Assembly: GCA_903919045.1 (NCBI GenBank) | Contig: CAIXGU010000097.1 | Span: 1-37,410 of the forward strand | Reading direction: 5' to 3' | DNA: 37,410 nt | Source: an uncultured Eubacteriales bacterium | Lineage (GTDB): Bacteria > Bacillota > Clostridia > Saccharofermentanales > UBA5734 | Shown here: positions 19,594 through 31,939 of the stretch, in pieces | How the letters are laid out: each line of letters begins with the position of its first letter | Position numbering within the stretch: the stretch's first letter is position 1 | Notes under the pieces: model-generated | Databases searched by the model: none | What the model saw: only the letters and a program-made list of their open reading frames with translations | Told to the model about the DNA's origin: nothing | Program-made: the position numbers and the translations under genes

Positions 19594-21540
<1,947 letters not shown>

Positions 21541-22261: not shown

Positions 22262-25015
22262 CTACGTCCGTTCCATGCGGCATCCGCCGATGTAGACGGC
22301 CGCGACGGCGAGGTCCGACGCAAGGATCGAGAAGTCCGCGCGCGCCCCCTCCGCGATTCGTCCGATGTCCGTCCGGCCGAGCAGGTCGGCCGGCGTCGTC
22401 GCGAGCATGCGGACGACGTCGACGAGCGGGATGCCCGCGTCGCGGTGCGCCGTGCGGAGGAGCCGGTCGCCCGTGGCGACGCTGCCCGCGAAGGCCGAGC
22501 GGTCCGGGAGCCAGGCCACGCCGTCGGCGACGACGACCGTCCGGCCGCCCTGCAGGCCGCCGAGGAGGCTCTTCCCGTCCGGCATGCCGGCGGCGCGCAT
22601 CGAGTCGGTCACGAGGCAGACGCGTCCCGGTCCCTTGATGCGCCAGATCATCCGCAGCATCGGCGGCGGCAGGTGGATGCCGTCGGCGATCGCCTCGACG
22701 TACATGCCGTCGAGGAGGTAGGCCGCCTCGACGACGCCGCCGCGGCGGTACCCGTCGATGCGGCGAACGGTCGACATTCCGGAATACAGATGCGTCGTGG
22801 AGACGAAGCCGGCCTCGTGCGCCGCGATCGCGTCCTCCATGAAGGCATCGGAGTGGGCGATCGAGGGCCGCACGCCGCGCGCGCGGAGCGCCTGCGCGAA
22901 CTCCCTTGCGCCCGGGAGCTCGGGGGCTGCGCTCCAGCGCAGGATCCCGGGGCAGCGGTCGAGCACGCGGAGGTACTCGGCCGGGTCGGGGTTGCGGATG
23001 TGGGCGGGGTCCTGGGCGCCCTTCTGGGCCATCGAGAAATACGGCCCTTCGAGGTGGAGCCCGAGGATGCGCGCCCCCGCCGCGGAAGCGGACGCCCCGC
23101 CGGCCGCGTGGGCCGCGTCGGACGCCCGCTTCGCCGCGGAGAACGTGTCGAGCGAGCGGAGCAGCGCCTCCGTGGAGCTCGCGAGCGTCGTCGGGAGGAG
23201 CGAGGTCGTGCCGTGGGCCGCGTGCATGCGCGCGGCGCCGCGGAAGGCCTCGGGCGTGCCGTCCATGAAGTCGTGGCCGCCGCCGCCGTGGGTGTGGACC
23301 TCGACGAACCCCGGGACGACCGTCGCGCCCGCGGCGTCGACCGTCCGGACGCCGGCGGCGTCCCCGCCGTCGAACCCGTCCGGCAGGCGCGCGTCGCCGG
23401 GCGCCTCGAGGATGCGGACGATGCGGCCATCCGCGATGCAGAGCGCCGCTTCGGGAAGGATGCGGTCCGGCAGGACGGCGCGGGCGCGGAGGACGACGAG
23501 GCGGTCGACGGCCGCCGTCTTCAGCCCGGAGGAAAGGCGCAGGCCGAGCCCGTCGGTGTGGCGGCGCAGATGGCGGACGAGGCCGGCGGCGTAGGCGTCC
23601 TCGAGACGGTCGAGGGCCGCGTGCAGGCGGTCGCCGAGCGTGCCGCCGGCCGGGTCCGCGTGCTTCAGGACGTGGCCGTACGTGATGTGCAGGACCTGGC
23701 GCGCGTCGTCCTGGTCGAGCAGGCAGGGCAGCCCGGCGTCGGTCATCGACGCCTCGGGCGCGATGTTCCCCGCCTCGCCGGAGATGTGGTAGAAGTTCCG
23801 CGCGTCCGGCAGCGACGCGACCGCGACGCGCAGGATCTCCCGGAACAGCGCGGGCTCGCGCGCGGACAGCACGCGCAGCGCCTCGAGCCAGTGCGTGCCG
23901 GCGGTCTTCAGGTGATAGCCCTCGGGCGCCTCGGCGCCGACGATCGGGAACACGAGGAACTTGTCGCTGCCCGAATGGACGCTGACGCGGTAGCCGAGCG
24001 CGCGGGCGATCGCCGCGTGCGCCGCGAACTCCCCGCGGAACCGGGCGACGTCGCCGCGGTAGTCGACGCCCTTCTGGAACTCGCCGCAGAAGCGCGGGGC
24101 GATGCTCATCGGGCGCACGCCGCGACGCAGCAGCTCCAGGGCCACGAACGCGTGGTCGGCGGGCGAGGTCACGGTCGCCGTCTCGTCGATCGAGACCTCG
24201 AAGTCGATCGGGCGCGCGGACGCCGCGATGCGCGTCCTGTACATGTCGACGGAGTGGGCGATCGCGCCCCGGTACGTCAGGACGCGCCGCTCGAAGCCCG
24301 GGCGGTCCATGGAGACGCCGAGCGCCGCGAGCCGGGGCTCCCCGCCCGCGAGGTAGCGCGCCTCGAGGTCGGCGCGCTCCGCCTCCGGCAGCACGGCGTA
24401 GCGCGCGCGGATCTCCGCTTCGGGCAGCGTCGCGAGCGTCTTGTCGATGTGGTCGGAGCAGTCGAGCGTGATCATCGTGAAGCCGCACCCGAGGGCGCAG
24501 TCGAGCTCCTCGCCGGTCTTCAGGTGGTCTCCGTCGGCGCCGTAGCCCTCGGTCCAGCCGACCTCGAACGCGCCCCAGGTGGCGGCCGCGAGGACCTCCT
24601 CGTAGGTGCGGCCGGTCAGGCGAAGCTCGCGCATGGACTGCTGGGCGAGCACCGGGAAGACGGGCAGGCCCGCGAGCGCCCTCAGGTGGCCGGCGGCCGC
24701 GCGGCCGAGCCGGTCGCCGAGGCCGATCGAGACGGCCTTCCCCGGGTTCGCGCAGGGCGCGAGGTGCGGGAACGCGGCGCGCATCCAGGCGGCGTTGGCG
24801 GTCGAAAGGCCGCAGACGGCCCGGCTTCCGCCGGGGAGGGTGCACAGGCCCTCGAGGCCCGCGGGGAAGCGGCCCTCCGCCGTCTCGACGAGGAGCGCGC
24901 GCGCGCCTTCATGGCGCACGAGCTCGAAGGAGGCGCCGTCCTTCGCGAGGCGCGAGGCCGGGTAGCGGCGATCGAGGGCGTCGGGGCGGGCGACGGCGGG
25001 GTTCGGGTCCGTCAT
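22262..25015 (-). CDS. UxaE (tagaturonate/fructuronate epimerase)-NagA (N-acetylglucosamine-6-phosphate deacetylase) fusion
   Basis: A 917-residue two-enzyme protein. Residues 1 to about 490 match the UxaE family (T. maritima TM0440 type): GDRLG (100-104), the AQQS and TGRT segments, ATWGAFEVG, GADGDHLK, TLDCSDHI, FEVSIDETATVTSP and VSVHSGSDKF. Residues from about 503 match NagA: PGFVEVHTHGGGGHDFMDGT (His574, His576), HLEGPYF (Glu656), AHSDA (His721), THLY (His742) and the catalytic Asp804 in VTDSM. The linker is only about 12 residues with no start codon or ribosome site, so separate translation of NagA is unlikely. The ATG at 25015 overlaps the lacI stop (ATGA). I do not know of this fusion; both active sites look intact. 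The substrate of the first domain may differ from uronates (inference). Confidence 0.9.
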   Translation of the reverse strand: MTDPNPAVARPDALDRRYPASRLAKDGASFELVRHEGARALLVETAEGRFPAGLEGLCTLPGGSRAVCGLSTANAAWMRAAFPHLAPCANPGKAVSIGLGDRLGRAAAGHLRALAGLPVFPVLAQQSMRELRLTGRTYEEVLAAATWGAFEVGWTEGYGADGDHLKTGEELDCALGCGFTMITLDCSDHIDKTLATLPEAEIRARYAVLPEAERADLEARYLAGGEPRLAALGVSMDRPGFERRVLTYRGAIAHSVDMYRTRIAASARPIDFEVSIDETATVTSPADHAFVALELLRRGVRPMSIAPRFCGEFQKGVDYRGDVARFRGEFAAHAAIARALGYRVSVHSGSDKFLVFPIVGAEAPEGYHLKTAGTHWLEALRVLSAREPALFREILRVAVASLPDARNFYHISGEAGNIAPEASMTDAGLPCLLDQDDARQVLHITYGHVLKHADPAGGTLGDRLHAALDRLEDAYAAGLVRHLRRHTDGLGLRLSSGLKTAAVDRLVVLRARAVLPDRILPEAALCIADGRIVRILEAPGDARLPDGFDGGDAAGVRTVDAAGATVVPGFVEVHTHGGGGHDFMDGTPEAFRGAARMHAAHGTTSLLPTTLASSTEALLRSLDTFSAAKRASDAAHAAGGASASAAGARILGLHLEGPYFSMAQKGAQDPAHIRNPDPAEYLRVLDRCPGILRWSAAPELPGAREFAQALRARGVRPSIAHSDAFMEDAIAAHEAGFVSTTHLYSGMSTVRRIDGYRRGGVVEAAYLLDGMYVEAIADGIHLPPPMLRMIWRIKGPGRVCLVTDSMRAAGMPDGKSLLGGLQGGRTVVVADGVAWLPDRSAFAGSVATGDRLLRTAHRDAGIPLVDVVRMLATTPADLLGRTDIGRIAEGARADFSILASDLAVAAVYIGGCRMERT

Positions 25016-26094
25016 GTCGTTCCTCCTTGCGGGGCCTTCCAGGGGGCGGGAGGCGCGCAGCTGGCGCGCGGGACGAGGCGGGGCGCGAAGCGCTCGACGG
25101 TGACCTTCCCCGGCTCCCGGAGCGCGTCGGAGAGGAGCCGCATCGCCGCGGCGCCGGTCTCGAAGGCGGGATGCGCGATGGTGGAAAGGGCGGGGGTGAC
25201 CCAGGCGCTGAACGGCAGGTCGTCGAACCCGAGGACGGACACGTCGTCGGGCACGCGCACCCCGAGCGCCGCGAAGCCCTGGATCAGGCCGAACGCCGTG
25301 ACGTCGTTCGCGGCGAAGACGGCGGTCGGCACGCGGGGGGAGCGTCCGGCCAGTCGGCCGGCCAGGCGGCGCCCGTTCTCGACCTCGTATCCTTCGGTGC
25401 CCTCGGCCTCGGACGTCCCGAGGAAGATGCGGTGCTCGCCGCCGGGGATGCCGAAGGCCGCGAGGCCCTCGAGGAATCCGCGCTGCAGCGATCGGCGGCT
25501 CGGGCGGTCGATCGGGGACGAGGCGAAGGCGATGTCGCGGTGCCCGAGGGCGTGCAGGTGCGCGACGGCGAGCTTCCCCGCGGCCTCGAAGTCGAACTCG
25601 ACGCGGCTGCATTTCAACCCCTCGACGACCTGGTCGAAGGTGACGATCGCGATGCCGCCGGACTGGAGGTCCTTGAGGAGATTCGCATCCGGGCGGGTCA
25701 GGGACACGATCGCGCCGGCCACCTGCTTCGTCGCGAGCATCCGGAGCGAGCGCGCCTCGGTCTCGGGATCGCGGAACGAACTGGCGAGGAGGACGTTGTA
25801 GCCGAGGCGGTGCGCCTCGGTCTCGAGCCCGAGGAGAACGGACGTGAAATAGGGATTCGACAGGTTCGGCAGCACGACGCCGATGTCGGCGCTCTCCCGG
25901 CGGCGGAGCATCCGCCCGATGGCGTTCGGCGTGTAGCCGACCTCCTTGGCGACGGCGACGACGCGCGCACGGACGGCCTCCTTCACGGGATAGCCGCTGT
26001 CGGACAGGACGCGGGACACGGTGGCGCCGCTCACCCCGCAGATCCGGGCGATGTCGTAGATCGTGGGCTTCCGGGTCTTCGGATCCAGGGCCAT
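25012..26094 (-). CDS. LacI-family transcriptional regulator
   Basis: A 360-residue sugar-responsive repressor type. Helix-turn-helix at residues 10-30 (TIYDIARICGVSGATVSRVL), a hinge near 55-65, and then the periplasmic-binding-protein-like effector domain with NLSNPYFTSVL and the DDVSVLGFDDLPFSAW signature. The start is placed at 26094, just before the HTH, with GAGGCGGTGG-like purines upstream; the frame extends 11 codons further without conservation. It overlaps the UxaE-NagA gene by four bases, so it very probably controls that enzyme and itself. The ligand is likely an amino-sugar phosphate or uronate intermediate (inference). Confidence 0.93.
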   Translation of the reverse strand: MALDPKTRKPTIYDIARICGVSGATVSRVLSDSGYPVKEAVRARVVAVAKEVGYTPNAIGRMLRRRESADIGVVLPNLSNPYFTSVLLGLETEAHRLGYNVLLASSFRDPETEARSLRMLATKQVAGAIVSLTRPDANLLKDLQSGGIAIVTFDQVVEGLKCSRVEFDFEAAGKLAVAHLHALGHRDIAFASSPIDRPSRRSLQRGFLEGLAAFGIPGGEHRIFLGTSEAEGTEGYEVENGRRLAGRLAGRSPRVPTAVFAANDVTAFGLIQGFAALGVRVPDDVSVLGFDDLPFSAWVTPALSTIAHPAFETGAAAMRLLSDALREPGKVTVERFAPRLVPRASCAPPAPWKAPQGGTT

Positions 26095-26276: not shown

Positions 26277-27206
26277 ATGAAGATCTCCGTCGTCATCCCC
26301 TTCTTCAATGAGGAGAAGCAGATCCCGATCACGGTCGACGCGCTCGTGCCCGTGCTGACGTCGCTCGGCTGCGACTTCGAGGCCGTGCTCGTCGACGACG
26401 GCTCGTCGGACGGCACCTGGGCCGCCCTCCGCGCGGCCTGCACCGCCGATGCGCGCCTGCGCGCGATCCGCTTCTCCCGCAACTTCGGCAAGGAGGCGGC
26501 CCTGTGCGCCGCGCTCGACGCCGCGGACGGCGACGCCGTCGTCGTGATGGACGGCGACCTGCAGCACCCGCCGGCCGTGATCCCGGAGATGGTCCGCCTC
26601 TGGCGCGACGAAGGCTACGAGGTCGTGGAGGGCGTGAAGTCGTCCCGCGGGCGCGAGAGCCTCGGCAGCCGGCTGAACGCGGCCCTGTTCTACAGCCTCT
26701 TCAAGCGCCTCTCCGGCTACGACCTGGAGAACGCCTCGGACTTCAAGCTCCTCGACCGCCGCGTCGTCGAGGAGTGGCGCCGCCTCGGCGAGCGCGACAC
26801 GTTCTTCCGCGGGCTGTCGGCGTGGCTCGGGTTCCGCCGCGCGAAGGTCCCGTTCGAGGTCGCCGACCGGAAGGCCGGGAAGAGCAAGTGGTCCCCCTTC
26901 AAGCTGATCCGCCTGAGCATCACCGCGATCACGTCGTTCTCCGCGATGCCGCTGCAGATCGTCTCGGTCCTCGGCGGGCTCCTGCTCGTCGGCTCCCTCG
27001 CCCTCGGGATCCAGACCCTCGTGAAATGGGCGCAGGGCTCCGCGGCGAGCGGCTTCACCACCGTGATCCTCCTGCTGCTCCTGATCGGCGGCTGCATCAT
27101 GCTGAGCCTCGGCCTGATCGGCATCTACCTCGCGCGCATCTTCGACCAGGTGAAGGGCCGCCCGCGCTACGTCGTCGCGGAGGACACGCGACGGAGGGGC
27201 CGCTGA
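26277..27206 (+). CDS. GT2 glycosyltransferase, polyprenyl-phosphate sugar synthase type
   Basis: A 309-residue enzyme of the DPM1/GtrB-like GT2 group, which moves a sugar from a nucleotide donor onto undecaprenyl phosphate at the cytosolic face. The GT-A domain shows VVIPFFNEE, LVDDGSSDGTW, the donor-metal VMDGDLQHPP and SDFKLLDRRVV. The region KAGKSKWSPFKL precedes two C-terminal membrane helices (about 225-250 and 260-285), as in GtrB/ArnC relatives. GGAGG is five bases before the ATG at 26277. The stop overlaps the next gene (TGATG). It probably makes the lipid-linked donor for the GT-C-like proteins that follow (inference from context). Confidence 0.93.
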   Translation: MKISVVIPFFNEEKQIPITVDALVPVLTSLGCDFEAVLVDDGSSDGTWAALRAACTADARLRAIRFSRNFGKEAALCAALDAADGDAVVVMDGDLQHPPAVIPEMVRLWRDEGYEVVEGVKSSRGRESLGSRLNAALFYSLFKRLSGYDLENASDFKLLDRRVVEEWRRLGERDTFFRGLSAWLGFRRAKVPFEVADRKAGKSKWSPFKLIRLSITAITSFSAMPLQIVSVLGGLLLVGSLALGIQTLVKWAQGSAASGFTTVILLLLLIGGCIMLSLGLIGIYLARIFDQVKGRPRYVVAEDTRRRGR

Positions 27207-29779
27207 TGCTGGGATTCGAGGCGCTCCCCGGCTTCCTCGGCGTCCTCGCCTCCGCGTACCTCGCCCTCTGCCTCGCGCTCGGGCATGCGCTGCGCGCCCG
27301 CCTGCTGCCGCCCGCGCCGGCGCTCTTCGAGGGCGCCGCCGGCGTGCGGACCGCGGACGGCCCGGACCTCGAGGGACGGCCCCTGCGGCCGACGCCGCAC
27401 CTCCCCGCCTGGACCTTCGACGTCCCCGTCGCCCTCGTGCTCGGCGGCATCGTCCTCACGTCGGCCGTCTACCTCCTCGCCTGCGCCTTCGACGCCGTCC
27501 TCCCCGCGACGTCCGCGATCCACCCGCTGCTGCCGGCGAACCTCGCCGGCGCCGCCCTGGCGGTCCTCGCGATCCGCGCCCTGCGCCCGCCGCACCGGCA
27601 GGTCCCGCTGGCCGAGGTCGGCCGCGGTCCGGTCGCGCGCGCCGTCGCCGGCGGGACGGACGCCGTCCGCCGCGCCTGGGCGGCCTTCGTCTCCTCGCCC
27701 TTCTTCGCCGGTTCCGCCGTCGCCTTCCTGCTGGTCGGCACCTACATCATGGCCTACGTCTTCTGGATGAAGGACGGGGTCCTGCACTCGGGCGTCACGG
27801 CGTTCAGCGACTTCTCGCCGCACACCGCGATGATCCGGTCCTTCTCGCACGGCCGCAACTTCCCGACCGAGTACCCGCACTTCGCGAACGACGGCATCCG
27901 CTACCACTTCCTGTTCCTCTTCCTCACGGGGAACCTCGAGTTCCTCGGCCTGCGGATGGACCTCGCCTTCGACCTGCTCGGGATCCTCGGCCTCGCCGCC
28001 TTCTGCGTCCTGCTCGGCGCGCTCGGCGTCGCGCTGACGGGCCGCCGCGGCGTCTTCCTCCTCGGCCCCCTGCTCCTGTTCCTCCGCGCGTCGGTCTCCT
28101 TCGTCCCGTTCCTCGCGGAGCTCGCGCGGAAGGCGGACGGGAGCCCGGTCGCCTTCGCGAAGCTGCTCTTCGCCCAGCGCGACTTCATCGGCGACACGCC
28201 CTTCGACAACTGGGGCATCTGGACATTCAACGTCTTCGGCAACCAGCGCCACCTCCTGTGGGGCGGCGTCGCGATGCTGCTCGTGCTGTTCATCTTCCTG
28301 CCCTACCTGCACCGGATGACCGTGCGGCTCCGTGCGCTGCGGCGCCCCGGGCGCGGCGGCGCCGATGCGGCGCGCCAGCTCACGACGGACGACCTGCTGC
28401 GCACGGCCGAGGCCGTCGCCGACGCCTGGTCGGACTCCGCACCGGAGGGCACCGGGCCCGACGACGCGTCGTCCGCCCCCGCGACCGCACCCGCCGCCGC
28501 CCGCCGGCCCGCCCCCGCGCCCGGCCTGCGCGCCTTCTTCCTGTCCCGCGAGGCCTGGATCCCAGACCGCGCGGACCTCCCCGCGATCGGGCTCGCGGCC
28601 GGCCTCCTGTTCCTCCTCCCCTATTGGCACGGCTCCGTCCTGCTCTCCGCCCTCGCGGTCCTGTTCGTCCTCGCGATCGTCTCGCAGGCGCGCCTCGCGC
28701 ATCTCGCCGTCGCCGTCGCCGCCCTCGCCGGCTCCTGGCTGCAGACCGGCTTCTTCGCGGGCTTCGGCACGAGCGTGGTCTCGCCGTCCTTCTACTTCGG
28801 CTTCGTCGCGCCGCTGCGGAGCGTCTTCGGCGTCCTCGACTACGCCTTCCAGGCCTTCGGGCTGACCTTCGTCCTCCTGCTGCTGCTCTTCTTCTCCCTG
28901 CGCCGCACCCAGGCCTTCGCCCTCGCGGCCTTCGCCGCGCCCTTCGCGCTCGCCTTCACGGTCTCGTTCCTGCCGGAAGGGCTGCGCGGGATGACCTCGT
29001 ACTACATCCTCGTCAACCACAAGTTCATCGTGCTGACGTTCGCGCTCGCGAACCTGTTCATCGCCGGGATGCTCTGCGACCTCTGGGCCGCGGGGCGCGA
29101 ACGCGCGGCGTCCTTCTCGTACCGGACGTCCGCGGCTCCGGACGCGATGCCCGATGAGGCCTCCCCGCCCGACGCGGCCCATCGGGAGGGCGCCGGGGAG
29201 CCGCCCGACGCGGCCCCGCCGGTGGAGGCGCCCGTGCTTCCGCGCCTGCGCGCGCCGTCGTTCCCGGGCCTGTGGCAGCGCGTCCTCGCGGTGGCGCTCG
29301 GGTTCGCCCTGATGGCCAACGGGGCCATCGACGCGATCATCTACTTCAACCGCGACCGTCAGACCGTCGGCATCGACACGCGGTCGCCGCTCGTCCTCTG
29401 GATCGAGGCGCACGCCGCACCCGACGCCGTCTTCCTCACGCCGCCGGATTACGCGTACAACGCGTTCTTCCTGTCCGGGCGCCTGTCGTTCTACGCCTGG
29501 CCGTACTTCGCGACGTCCGCCGGGCACGACACGGGCGATCGGATCCAGGTCGTCGACGCGCTCTATGCGGGCTGCGGCGGGGACCTCGCGGAATTCCGCC
29601 GGCTCGCGGAGGAGAACGGGATCGCGTTCGCGATCGTCGACGACGGCCTCCGGAACAATGCGGACCGGACGACCGACGAGGCCTTCTTCGAGAAATACCT
29701 GCCGGTCGCCGCGTCGTTCCCCGAGCTCGGGAACCTGGTCGTGTACGACCTGCGGGCGGACCCGCTGGCCCTGCCGTAG
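27206..29779 (+). CDS. Polytopic GT-C-like membrane protein, paralog 1
   Basis: An 857-residue protein with a dozen or more membrane helices and a C-terminal soluble domain of about 130 residues. The first large outer loop carries FSDFSPHTAMIRSF with Asp202, where GT-C glycosyltransferases keep a catalytic acid. It continues into a strongly conserved block (213-248). NQRHLLWGG is a second shared motif. Two hydrophilic low-complexity loops (about 375-445 and 630-685) are absent from the paralog downstream. I recognise no exact family; lipid-linked sugar transfer is inferred from topology and the coupled GT2 gene. The ATG overlaps the GT2 stop. Confidence 0.85.
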   Translation: MLGFEALPGFLGVLASAYLALCLALGHALRARLLPPAPALFEGAAGVRTADGPDLEGRPLRPTPHLPAWTFDVPVALVLGGIVLTSAVYLLACAFDAVLPATSAIHPLLPANLAGAALAVLAIRALRPPHRQVPLAEVGRGPVARAVAGGTDAVRRAWAAFVSSPFFAGSAVAFLLVGTYIMAYVFWMKDGVLHSGVTAFSDFSPHTAMIRSFSHGRNFPTEYPHFANDGIRYHFLFLFLTGNLEFLGLRMDLAFDLLGILGLAAFCVLLGALGVALTGRRGVFLLGPLLLFLRASVSFVPFLAELARKADGSPVAFAKLLFAQRDFIGDTPFDNWGIWTFNVFGNQRHLLWGGVAMLLVLFIFLPYLHRMTVRLRALRRPGRGGADAARQLTTDDLLRTAEAVADAWSDSAPEGTGPDDASSAPATAPAAARRPAPAPGLRAFFLSREAWIPDRADLPAIGLAAGLLFLLPYWHGSVLLSALAVLFVLAIVSQARLAHLAVAVAALAGSWLQTGFFAGFGTSVVSPSFYFGFVAPLRSVFGVLDYAFQAFGLTFVLLLLLFFSLRRTQAFALAAFAAPFALAFTVSFLPEGLRGMTSYYILVNHKFIVLTFALANLFIAGMLCDLWAAGRERAASFSYRTSAAPDAMPDEASPPDAAHREGAGEPPDAAPPVEAPVLPRLRAPSFPGLWQRVLAVALGFALMANGAIDAIIYFNRDRQTVGIDTRSPLVLWIEAHAAPDAVFLTPPDYAYNAFFLSGRLSFYAWPYFATSAGHDTGDRIQVVDALYAGCGGDLAEFRRLAEENGIAFAIVDDGLRNNADRTTDEAFFEKYLPVAASFPELGNLVVYDLRADPLALP
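27842..27948 (+). repeat. Conserved block, copy 1, of tandem GT-C-like genes
   Basis: A 107-base stretch that matches 30416-30522 with 11 mismatches by hand count, in the same reading frame (residues 213-248). It covers the outer-loop motif after the putative catalytic Asp. Confidence 0.85.
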
Positions 29780-29797
29780 ACGCGGACGCTCCGAAGG

Positions 29798-31939
29798 ATG
29801 GCCGCCCTCCTCTTCCTGGTCCTCGCGTTCTGGCTCGGCGACCGCATCCGGCGCCGCGCCGTCCCCGACACGCGCGCGCTGTTCGCCGCGATTGCGGGGA
29901 CCGGCCCTGCGCGCCCGGCCGATGGGACCGGCGACGACGCGGACGCGCCGCCGCTCCTCCCGCCCTCCTGGACGTTCGATCTTCCGGCCGCGCTCGTGAC
30001 GGGCGTCCTCGTCCTCGCGTCGGCGACGTATCTCGCCGGCTATGCGTTCGATGCGCTCGTCCAGGAGGGCCTGCACCCCCTCCTCCCCGCGAACGCCCTC
30101 GTGCTGGGCCTCGCCGCCGCCGCGATCGCGATCGACGTCCTCGTCGCCTCCCGGCCCCGGCGCCGCGCGCTCCGCGCCGACGCCGCCTCCCGCCTCTCCG
30201 GCCTCGCGGCGCGGGTCCGCGCCTGGGCGGCCGCCCGTCCCTTCCGGATCTCCGGCGCCTTCCGCCGGCCGTCCGTCTACGCCGTCTCCGCGGCCGTCTT
30301 CCTCGCCCTCGGCTGGTTCCTGATGGCCTCGGTCCTCACGGTGAAGGACGGGCGGCTCTCCGCGGGCGCCACGGTGTTCAGCGACTACGCCCCGCACATC
30401 GCCCTGATCCGCTCGTTCTCGCACGGGCGCAACTTCCCGACCGAGTACCCCCTGTTCCCGGGCGACGGGATCCGCTACCACTTCCTCTTCCTGTTCCTCA
30501 CGGGGAACCTGGAGTTCCTCGGGATGCGCCTCGACGTCGCGTTCAACCTGCTCGGCGCGCTCGGGCTCGTCGCGTTCTGCCTGCTCCTCGGCGCGCTCGC
30601 GGTCCTGCTGGTCCGCCGCCGCTCGGCCTTCCTCGTCGCGCCGCTCCTGCTGTTCCTGCGCAGCTCGCTCGCCTTCGCGACGTTCCTCGGCGCGCTGTGG
30701 CGCGAATCCGACGGGAACCTCGGGGGCGTGATCGTCGGGCTGCTCCTGAACCGCGGCTACATCGGGGAGACGCCCTACGAGAACTGGGGCCTGTGGACCG
30801 TCAACGTCTACAGCAACCAGCGCCACCTCCTGTGGGGCGCCTCCGTCCTGGTGCTCGCGCTCCTCCTGCTCCTGCCCCTCTGGCGGCGCTCGCCGCAGCC
30901 GCGCCTGCTCTCCCGCGACGCCTGGCTCCCGCAGGACGCGCGTCCCGTCCTCCTCGCCGGACTCCTCCTCGTCCTGCTGCCCTACTTCCACGGCTCGATG
31001 CTGATCGGGGCGTGCCTCGTCCTCGGCACGGTCGGCCTCTTCTCCGCGGGGCGCCTCGCCTTCGCCGCGGTCCTCGCGGCCGGCGCCGGCTCCGCCGTGC
31101 TGCAGGCCGCCTTCTTCTCGGGCGGCGCCGCGTCCGTCGCGCACCCCCGGATCCTGCTCGGCTTCGTCGCCGAGGACAGGACCCTCGCCGGCGTCCTCGC
31201 GTACTGCGTCCTCGCCTTCGGGGTCGCCTTCGTCCTGCTCCCGTTCCTCCCGCTGCTCGGAACGCGGCGGCAGGCCGTGCTCTGGCTTGCGTTCCTCGTC
31301 CCCTTCGTCTTCGCCTTCACGGTGTCGCTGACGCCCGACGTGGCGGTGAACCACAAGTACATCCTGCTGGCGTTCGCGCTCGAGAACGTCTTCCTCGCCG
31401 GCCTGCTCGCGGCGCTCGCGCGTCCGCCGTCCGACGCGGGCCGCCTGCGGCGCATCCTGCGGAAGTCTCTCGCCGTCGCGCTCGCCGTCTTCCTGACCGC
31501 GACCGGGTGCATCGACCTCTGGACGTATTTCGTCGCGAACCGCATCCGCGTGTCGATTCCGCTCGATTCGCCCGTCGCGGCGTGGATCGAGACGCACACG
31601 GATCCCGACGACGTGTTCCTCACGCCGCGCTACCACTACAACGCGTTCTTCCTCGCCGGCCGCAAGGCCTTCCTCGGCTGGCCCTACTACGCCTGGTCCG
31701 CGGGCCACGGCACCGGGGCGCGCAACGACCGCGTCCTCTGGCTCTATGCGGGCGCGGGGAACAGCGCCGACGCGTTCCGGGCCTTCTGCCGGGAGAACGG
31801 GATCGCCTATGCGATCGTCGACGACGGGTGGCGGAGGGATCTCGGAGAGGGCCTGGACGAAGCGTTCCTCGCGGCGAATTTCCGCGTGGCGGCGACGTTC
31901 CCCGACGACGGGAACCTGACGGTCTACGCGATCGGCTGA
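29798..31939 (+). CDS. Polytopic GT-C-like membrane protein, paralog 2
   Basis: A 713-residue paralog of the preceding gene, collinear over nearly its whole length but lacking the two low-complexity loops and with a shorter N-terminus. Shared features: FSDYAPHIALIRSF (Asp196), the 107-base conserved block (residues 207-242), NQRHLLWGA, VNHKYI, and the C-terminal soluble domain with WIETHTDPDDVFLTP and YAIVDDGW. The start is uncertain: CGAAGG abuts the ATG with no spacer, and the gene is in the same frame as paralog 1, separated by one TAG and six codons. Function inferred as for paralog 1. Confidence 0.83.
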   Translation: MAALLFLVLAFWLGDRIRRRAVPDTRALFAAIAGTGPARPADGTGDDADAPPLLPPSWTFDLPAALVTGVLVLASATYLAGYAFDALVQEGLHPLLPANALVLGLAAAAIAIDVLVASRPRRRALRADAASRLSGLAARVRAWAAARPFRISGAFRRPSVYAVSAAVFLALGWFLMASVLTVKDGRLSAGATVFSDYAPHIALIRSFSHGRNFPTEYPLFPGDGIRYHFLFLFLTGNLEFLGMRLDVAFNLLGALGLVAFCLLLGALAVLLVRRRSAFLVAPLLLFLRSSLAFATFLGALWRESDGNLGGVIVGLLLNRGYIGETPYENWGLWTVNVYSNQRHLLWGASVLVLALLLLLPLWRRSPQPRLLSRDAWLPQDARPVLLAGLLLVLLPYFHGSMLIGACLVLGTVGLFSAGRLAFAAVLAAGAGSAVLQAAFFSGGAASVAHPRILLGFVAEDRTLAGVLAYCVLAFGVAFVLLPFLPLLGTRRQAVLWLAFLVPFVFAFTVSLTPDVAVNHKYILLAFALENVFLAGLLAALARPPSDAGRLRRILRKSLAVALAVFLTATGCIDLWTYFVANRIRVSIPLDSPVAAWIETHTDPDDVFLTPRYHYNAFFLAGRKAFLGWPYYAWSAGHGTGARNDRVLWLYAGAGNSADAFRAFCRENGIAYAIVDDGWRRDLGEGLDEAFLAANFRVAATFPDDGNLTVYAIG
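30416..30522 (+). repeat. Conserved block, copy 2, of tandem GT-C-like genes
   Basis: Second copy of the 107-base block described at 27842-27948; about 90% identical at the DNA level. Confidence 0.85.

Follow-up and report, generated by a model that had tools for sequence, protein, structure and literature searches.

Three-component glycosylation systems are the precedent for the locus described here (PMC11127046, PMC7389260), and the GtrA/GtrB/Gtr system of Shigella, the CsbB/GtcA/YfhO system of Gram-positive bacteria and the GT136 pentofuranose system resemble it in combining a polyprenyl-phosphate sugar synthase with a GT-C transferase that acts outside. As a whole operon, the closest precedent is pgf of Streptococcus mutans (PgfS, PgfM1, PgfE and PgfM2), whose two related membrane proteins have PgfS in common and act at different steps, PgfM2 being proposed to act late (PMC5856776). 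Here too, one GT2 of the PgfS kind stands with two related membrane proteins, the likeness to the PgfM proteins being taken from their description and not from sequence. In structure, the best matches are DPY19 C-mannosyltransferases and STT3/AglB oligosaccharyltransferases, which are alike in the acidic base of the first outer loop (Glu71 in CeDPY19; PMC10154233) and in an outer dome.

The window, that is, the whole stretch of 37,410 nucleotides that was analyzed, has a GC content of 71.8% and comes from an uncultured Eubacteriales genome of 2.64 Mb in 308 contigs. It contains three intact genes in the same direction, which encode a GT2 and two membrane proteins, p1 and p2, of one family, here called M (Table 1). 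The GT2 plus GT-C pairing is in itself an ordinary and known design; the M family is unnamed, and its doubling is specific to the genus. The locus differs from the three-component systems in that its GT-C proteins match no named Pfam GT-C family, the flippase is unlinked and the GT-C gene is present in two copies, and from pgf in that there is no epimerase gene and the GT2 falls below the equivalog cut-off for PgfS. We consider that GT2 and the two paralogs probably form an extracytoplasmic glycosylation module. Its gene order, homologies, folds, conservation and the age of its duplication come from computation, whereas we infer the activity, the sugar, the acceptor, the flippase and any division of labor between the copies.

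Table 1. Features of the GT2-p1-p2 locus, with positions in the window.
Feature	Position	Strand	Basis
GT2, predicted polyprenyl-phosphate sugar synthase, 309 aa	26277..27206	+	GtrB/ArnC/PgfS type, C-terminal membrane helices
TGATG overlap of GT2 stop and p1 start, one base in common	27204..27208	+	sequence
p1, predicted GT-C-fold membrane protein, 857 aa	27206..29779	+	AF2 and Foldseek
Asp202 of p1, putative catalytic Asp, first outer loop, FSDFSPH	27809..27811	+	invariant in alignments
p1 loop that contains insertion 1 (aa 369-472), cytosolic by prediction and disordered in part	28310..28621	+	topology, pLDDT, alignment
p1 loop that contains insertion 2 (aa 627-684), cytosolic by prediction and disordered	29084..29257	+	topology, pLDDT
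Thr770 of p1 (Trp in p2 and 91% of other members; YAWSAGH)	29513..29515	+	family alignment
p2, predicted GT-C-fold membrane protein, 713 aa	29798..31939	+	AF2 and Foldseek
Asp196 of p2, putative catalytic Asp, first outer loop, FSDYAPH	30383..30385	+	invariant; hhalign pairs it with DUF2298 Asp
Leu219 of p2 (His in p1 and 59/59 other members; YPHF)	30452..30454	+	family alignment
p2 C-terminal outer domain, aa 584-713	31547..31936	+	sub-threshold DUF6798/DPY19 matches; mixed helix/strand domain in model

The preliminary description of this DNA regarded the three genes as translationally coupled. This can be kept for GT2 and p1, judged from the start/stop overlap alone, and an identical -1 arrangement of the two genes is found in the sister genome (G001); it cannot be kept for p1 and p2, which are merely close, the start of p2 lying 18 nt beyond the stop of p1. 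GT2 itself matches Pfam Glycos_transf_2 (E 2.9e-29), and its best NCBIfam score is with PgfS (NF047588; E 3.2e-72), at 243 bits against a cut-off of 500 and therefore outside that equivalog; the ArnC equivalog model is likewise below its cut-off. Among solved structures, GtrB (sll0501) is matched with E 1.2e-63 and ArnC is matched as well. In the full-length alignment, which includes the membrane part, D92, D94 and D155 of GT2 correspond to D94, D96 and D157 of GtrB (PMC4728340), and the GT-A domain, metal-binding DxD, catalytic Asp and membrane helices expected of a polyprenyl-phosphate sugar synthase were all found. The assignment to such a synthase, made earlier, thus agrees with the homology to GtrB and ArnC and with the catalytic Asp residues in place, and GT2 is by homology a GtrB/ArnC-type enzyme whose sugar is not readable from the sequence.

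The two membrane proteins, previously described as paralogs, are homologous from end to end, with identities of 50% over 348 residues and 42% over 414 residues in the full-length alignment (E = 1e-80). AlphaFold2 models built with 43-44 homologues were confident for both (pLDDT 90.5 and pTM 0.91 for p2; 86.2 and 0.87 for p1). When the models were compared with PDB by Foldseek, every match at E <= 0.001 (16/16 for p2 and 10/10 for p1) was a GT-C enzyme or a complex containing one, the matched structures being oligosaccharyltransferases, CeDPY19, AftA, AftD, PglB and ArnT, with moderate TM-scores of 0.28-0.43 by query length. The GT-C fold, for which structure prediction had been proposed as a check, is therefore upheld in both paralogs. 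Fold and outer-loop acidic residue together support the placement of the modeled p1 and p2 in the GT-C superfamily, as putative transferases.

In profile searches, M proteins reach the Pfam or NCBIfam cut-off of no family, and the M profile found no match among the sequences of solved structures. Among the 44 members used for profile tests, none matches the Pfam profiles of YfhO, PMT, PMT_2 or STT3 at E <= 0.01. DUF6798 (PF20604), on which a literature search returned no paper, is matched at E <= 0.01 by 16 of the 44, with p2 at 22.7 bits against a gathering cut-off of 26.9. The DPY19 profile (PF10034) is matched by the C-terminal region only, not over the full length, in three of the 44 members (best 23.8 bits against 27.2, E 1.5e-5). 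No member matches DUF2298 (PF10060) directly at E <= 0.01; profile-profile comparison with hhalign gives a probability of 94.3% (E 1e-7) and pairs the Asp of the FSD motif with a conserved DUF2298 Asp. M and DUF2298 genes also share loci in Lachnospiraceae, Anaerolineaceae and Deefgea, and the abstracts of the literature found do not address the function of DUF2298.

The Asp of the FSDxxPH motif, reported earlier as common to both paralogs, is invariant across the family alignments, and the invariant positions include Asp196, Pro199, Asn212, His228, Asn340-Gln-Arg-His343, Asn518-His-Lys520, Ser634-Ala-Gly636 and Arg642. In p2, the loop preceding the FSD segment has 12 Lys/Arg against 1 Asp/Glu by hydropathy and charge analysis; since it is so strongly positive it should lie inside, and the FSD loop is therefore placed outside. 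By this positive-inside topology and the GT-C fold, the conserved Asp is predicted to face the outside and not the cytosol, in agreement with the preliminary description, and the first outer loop of both proteins carries the acidic residue that characterizes GT-C enzymes. The modeled C-terminal domain of p2 fits what has been described as the luminal dome in GT-C enzymes (PMC10154233). M has only ~10-12% identity to DPY19, STT3 and AglB and, from the topology, differs from them in a core that is preceded by three additional N-terminal helices.

The acceptor is a separate matter. A narrower reading of the module would have p1 and p2 glycosylate secreted proteins, as DPY19 and the oligosaccharyltransferases do, and not a wall polymer or lipid; oligosaccharyltransferases and CeDPY19 as the best structural matches, the Dpy19 matches of the dome and the top NCBIfam score of GT2 with PgfS, a member of a protein-glycosylation operon, all point in this direction. 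Those Dpy19 matches are below the Pfam cut-off, however, and AftA, AftD and ArnT, which have other acceptors, match too. The acceptor cannot be read from the fold, and we regard this narrower reading as possible but doubtful.

A tree of 63 M members places the p1 proteins of the genus, known from two genomes, in one clade (support 100) and the p2 proteins in another (99), and joins these two clades (97). The duplication therefore predates the split of these two genomes. The tandem pair is confined to this genus (2/2 genomes), no other being found among 23 genomes of the family, and the source genome has no third copy. In G003 and G019, the extra M matches have the look of a single gene distributed over contigs; in G020, where the overlap is short, the extra match could belong to the one gene or to a second. 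One further genome (locus L175, G007:C201) has a second M-like gene that is clearly more divergent, lacks the SAGH motif and is cut by the contig end.

Whether the two copies do the same work can be considered from their conserved sites. Of the 84 strongly conserved positions, 68 are kept by both copies in both species, among them those of FSDxxPH, NQRH, NHK and SAG; 18 changes at conserved sites tell the copies apart, the derived state being that of p1 in 14 cases and that of p2 in four. These observations would suit copies that are redundant or serve dosage, using one donor and one acceptor, with one of the two perhaps drifting. Against this, both frames are intact in two species between which orthologs have no more than 61-63% identity, a conserved loop motif persists in p1, and each copy has private changes at conserved sites that the two species share. 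Position 219 of p2 is Leu or Met where His is otherwise invariant; in p1, Trp770 has become Thr or Gly, Ser295 has become Ala and several Tyr have become Phe. dN/dS is uninformative for the pair because GC at third codon positions is ~96%. On this evidence we take redundancy to be unlikely. The reciprocal divergence suggests two specificities and, as far as sequence goes, favors functional divergence over redundancy, short of proof. A division of labor between p1 and p2 is accordingly the reading that we slightly prefer; acceptor or linkage would then most likely set the two apart, much like the PgfM1 and PgfM2 steps in Streptococcus mutans. The pair is thus a natural one, with defined residue differences, for studying acceptor choice in GT-C enzymes. 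The most detailed proposal is quite improbable in its entirety: that M is a bacterial GT-C family as yet without a name, has an outer dome like that of DPY19 and uses a polyprenyl-phosphate sugar to glycosylate secreted proteins, and that its genus-level duplication split acceptor or linkage specificity through reciprocal loss of an outer-loop His and a dome Trp.

M proteins are common across Clostridia and also occur outside this class. They were found in 42 of 58 sampled relatives and in 392 stretches of a species-level genome set, including Blautia, Herbinix, Deefgea and Anaerolineaceae, when an alignment was used as query; p2 alone gave no match in that set. The named relatives that have the family are mostly Clostridia metagenome-assembled genomes (MAGs). 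A likely role is hereby assigned to membrane proteins that are widespread in Clostridia and fall below every Pfam and NCBIfam cut-off.

Within the order, GT2 lies directly upstream of M in 25/25 loci read from families f1, f3 and f4, the G001 locus included, mostly <=8 nt apart or overlapping, and M of family f2 has no linked GT2 in 10/10 loci; in the species-level set, some genomes of which overlap the sample of the order, GT2 lies directly upstream in 27 of 80 loci. GT2 and M thus need not be paired: these ten f2 loci lack the linkage, and GT2 is retained in many genomes that have no M. It stays beside PHP in genomes without M, so that the two genes can be lost separately. EF-G, PHP(-NUDIX) and GT2 form an old conserved neighborhood in the order (loci L158-L171 and the window), with M present or absent between GT2 and PHP. 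This synteny within the order could stem from common descent rather than function.

GtrA, the third component, adjoins GT2 and M in two relatives: a Bacillota MAG has GtrA-GT2-M in line (L105, 2600-6127), and Deefgea has DUF2298-GtrA-GT2-M (L139, 600-5995), the fullest three-component form of the M family. In the window GT2 and the GT-C genes are adjacent and there is no flippase gene; the source genome has four GtrA-domain matches, none of them linked to GT2-p1-p2. Herbinix-type loci read GT2-M-Glf-GT2'-DUF2298. A gene for UDP-galactopyranose mutase directly follows M in nine loci of Lachnospiraceae, Clostridiales MAG and Anaerolineaceae sequences (L150, L151, L146, L131, L142, L118, L134, L147 and L144), in L134 within the same open frame as M; in most of these loci, genes for a second GT2 and for a DUF2298 protein come next. 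The mutase hints at galactofuranose as the sugar in those loci.

M often lies behind GT2, in two loci together with a GtrA flippase, which suggests glycosylation by a system of three components. The surface glycosylation module of the preliminary description gains support from the GT-C fold of both paralogs, the GT2 residues, the Asp outside and the recurrent GT2-M linkage, including unrelated contexts beside GtrA. In the module, GT2 would load a sugar from a cytosolic nucleotide-sugar onto polyprenyl (undecaprenyl) phosphate, and a flippase, probably of the GtrA family and encoded elsewhere in the genome, would turn the lipid-linked sugar to the outer face. There p1 and p2 would each pass the sugar on to an extracytoplasmic acceptor, the invariant outer-loop Asp serving as catalytic base and the C-terminal dome in acceptor binding; two transferases fed by one donor, as supposed earlier, are plausible. 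That p1 and p2 are instead polyprenyl-phosphate-sugar flippases or Wzy-like polymerases, as large polytopic proteins adjoining a GT2 might suggest, is very improbable in view of the GT-C fold of both, the invariant outer-loop Asp and the outer dome, and of the separate GtrA flippases beside GT2-M in two loci.

Long disordered cytosolic loops had been ascribed to p1 only. Within the pair this is correct: pLDDT is below 50 at 384-392 and 411-434 in insertion 1, which has a short helix at aa 394-410 and a motif, RQLTTD[DE]LL, common to the sister genome, and at 643-669 and 675-683 in insertion 2, and the charge count places the loops in the cytosol. As a trait of p1 only it fails, since single-copy relatives have low-complexity loops too. 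The loops as an invention of p1 were rejected, some single-copy relatives of f2 carrying longer insertions at the second site.

The 107-base block of about 90% identity between the two genes was recovered, the best block being 89.7% identical (27842-27948 against 30416-30522) and covering the FSD loop. Its identity is explained by protein constraint together with 97% GC at third positions. Recent gene conversion between p1 and p2 is unsupported, because synonymous identity is not significantly raised in the block (26/33, against 203/311 elsewhere; Fisher p = 0.13).

Elsewhere in the window, one uninterrupted frame on the minus strand (22262-25018) joins tagaturonate epimerase (UxaE) and a NagA-like amidohydrolase; in the sister genome the two genes are separate and ~20 kb apart, and the joined frame is either a private fusion or an assembly indel. 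Also on the minus strand (19594-21540), phosphoglycerate kinase is fused to triosephosphate isomerase, adjoining a cofactor-independent phosphoglycerate mutase; a fusion of this kinase and isomerase is known from Thermotoga.
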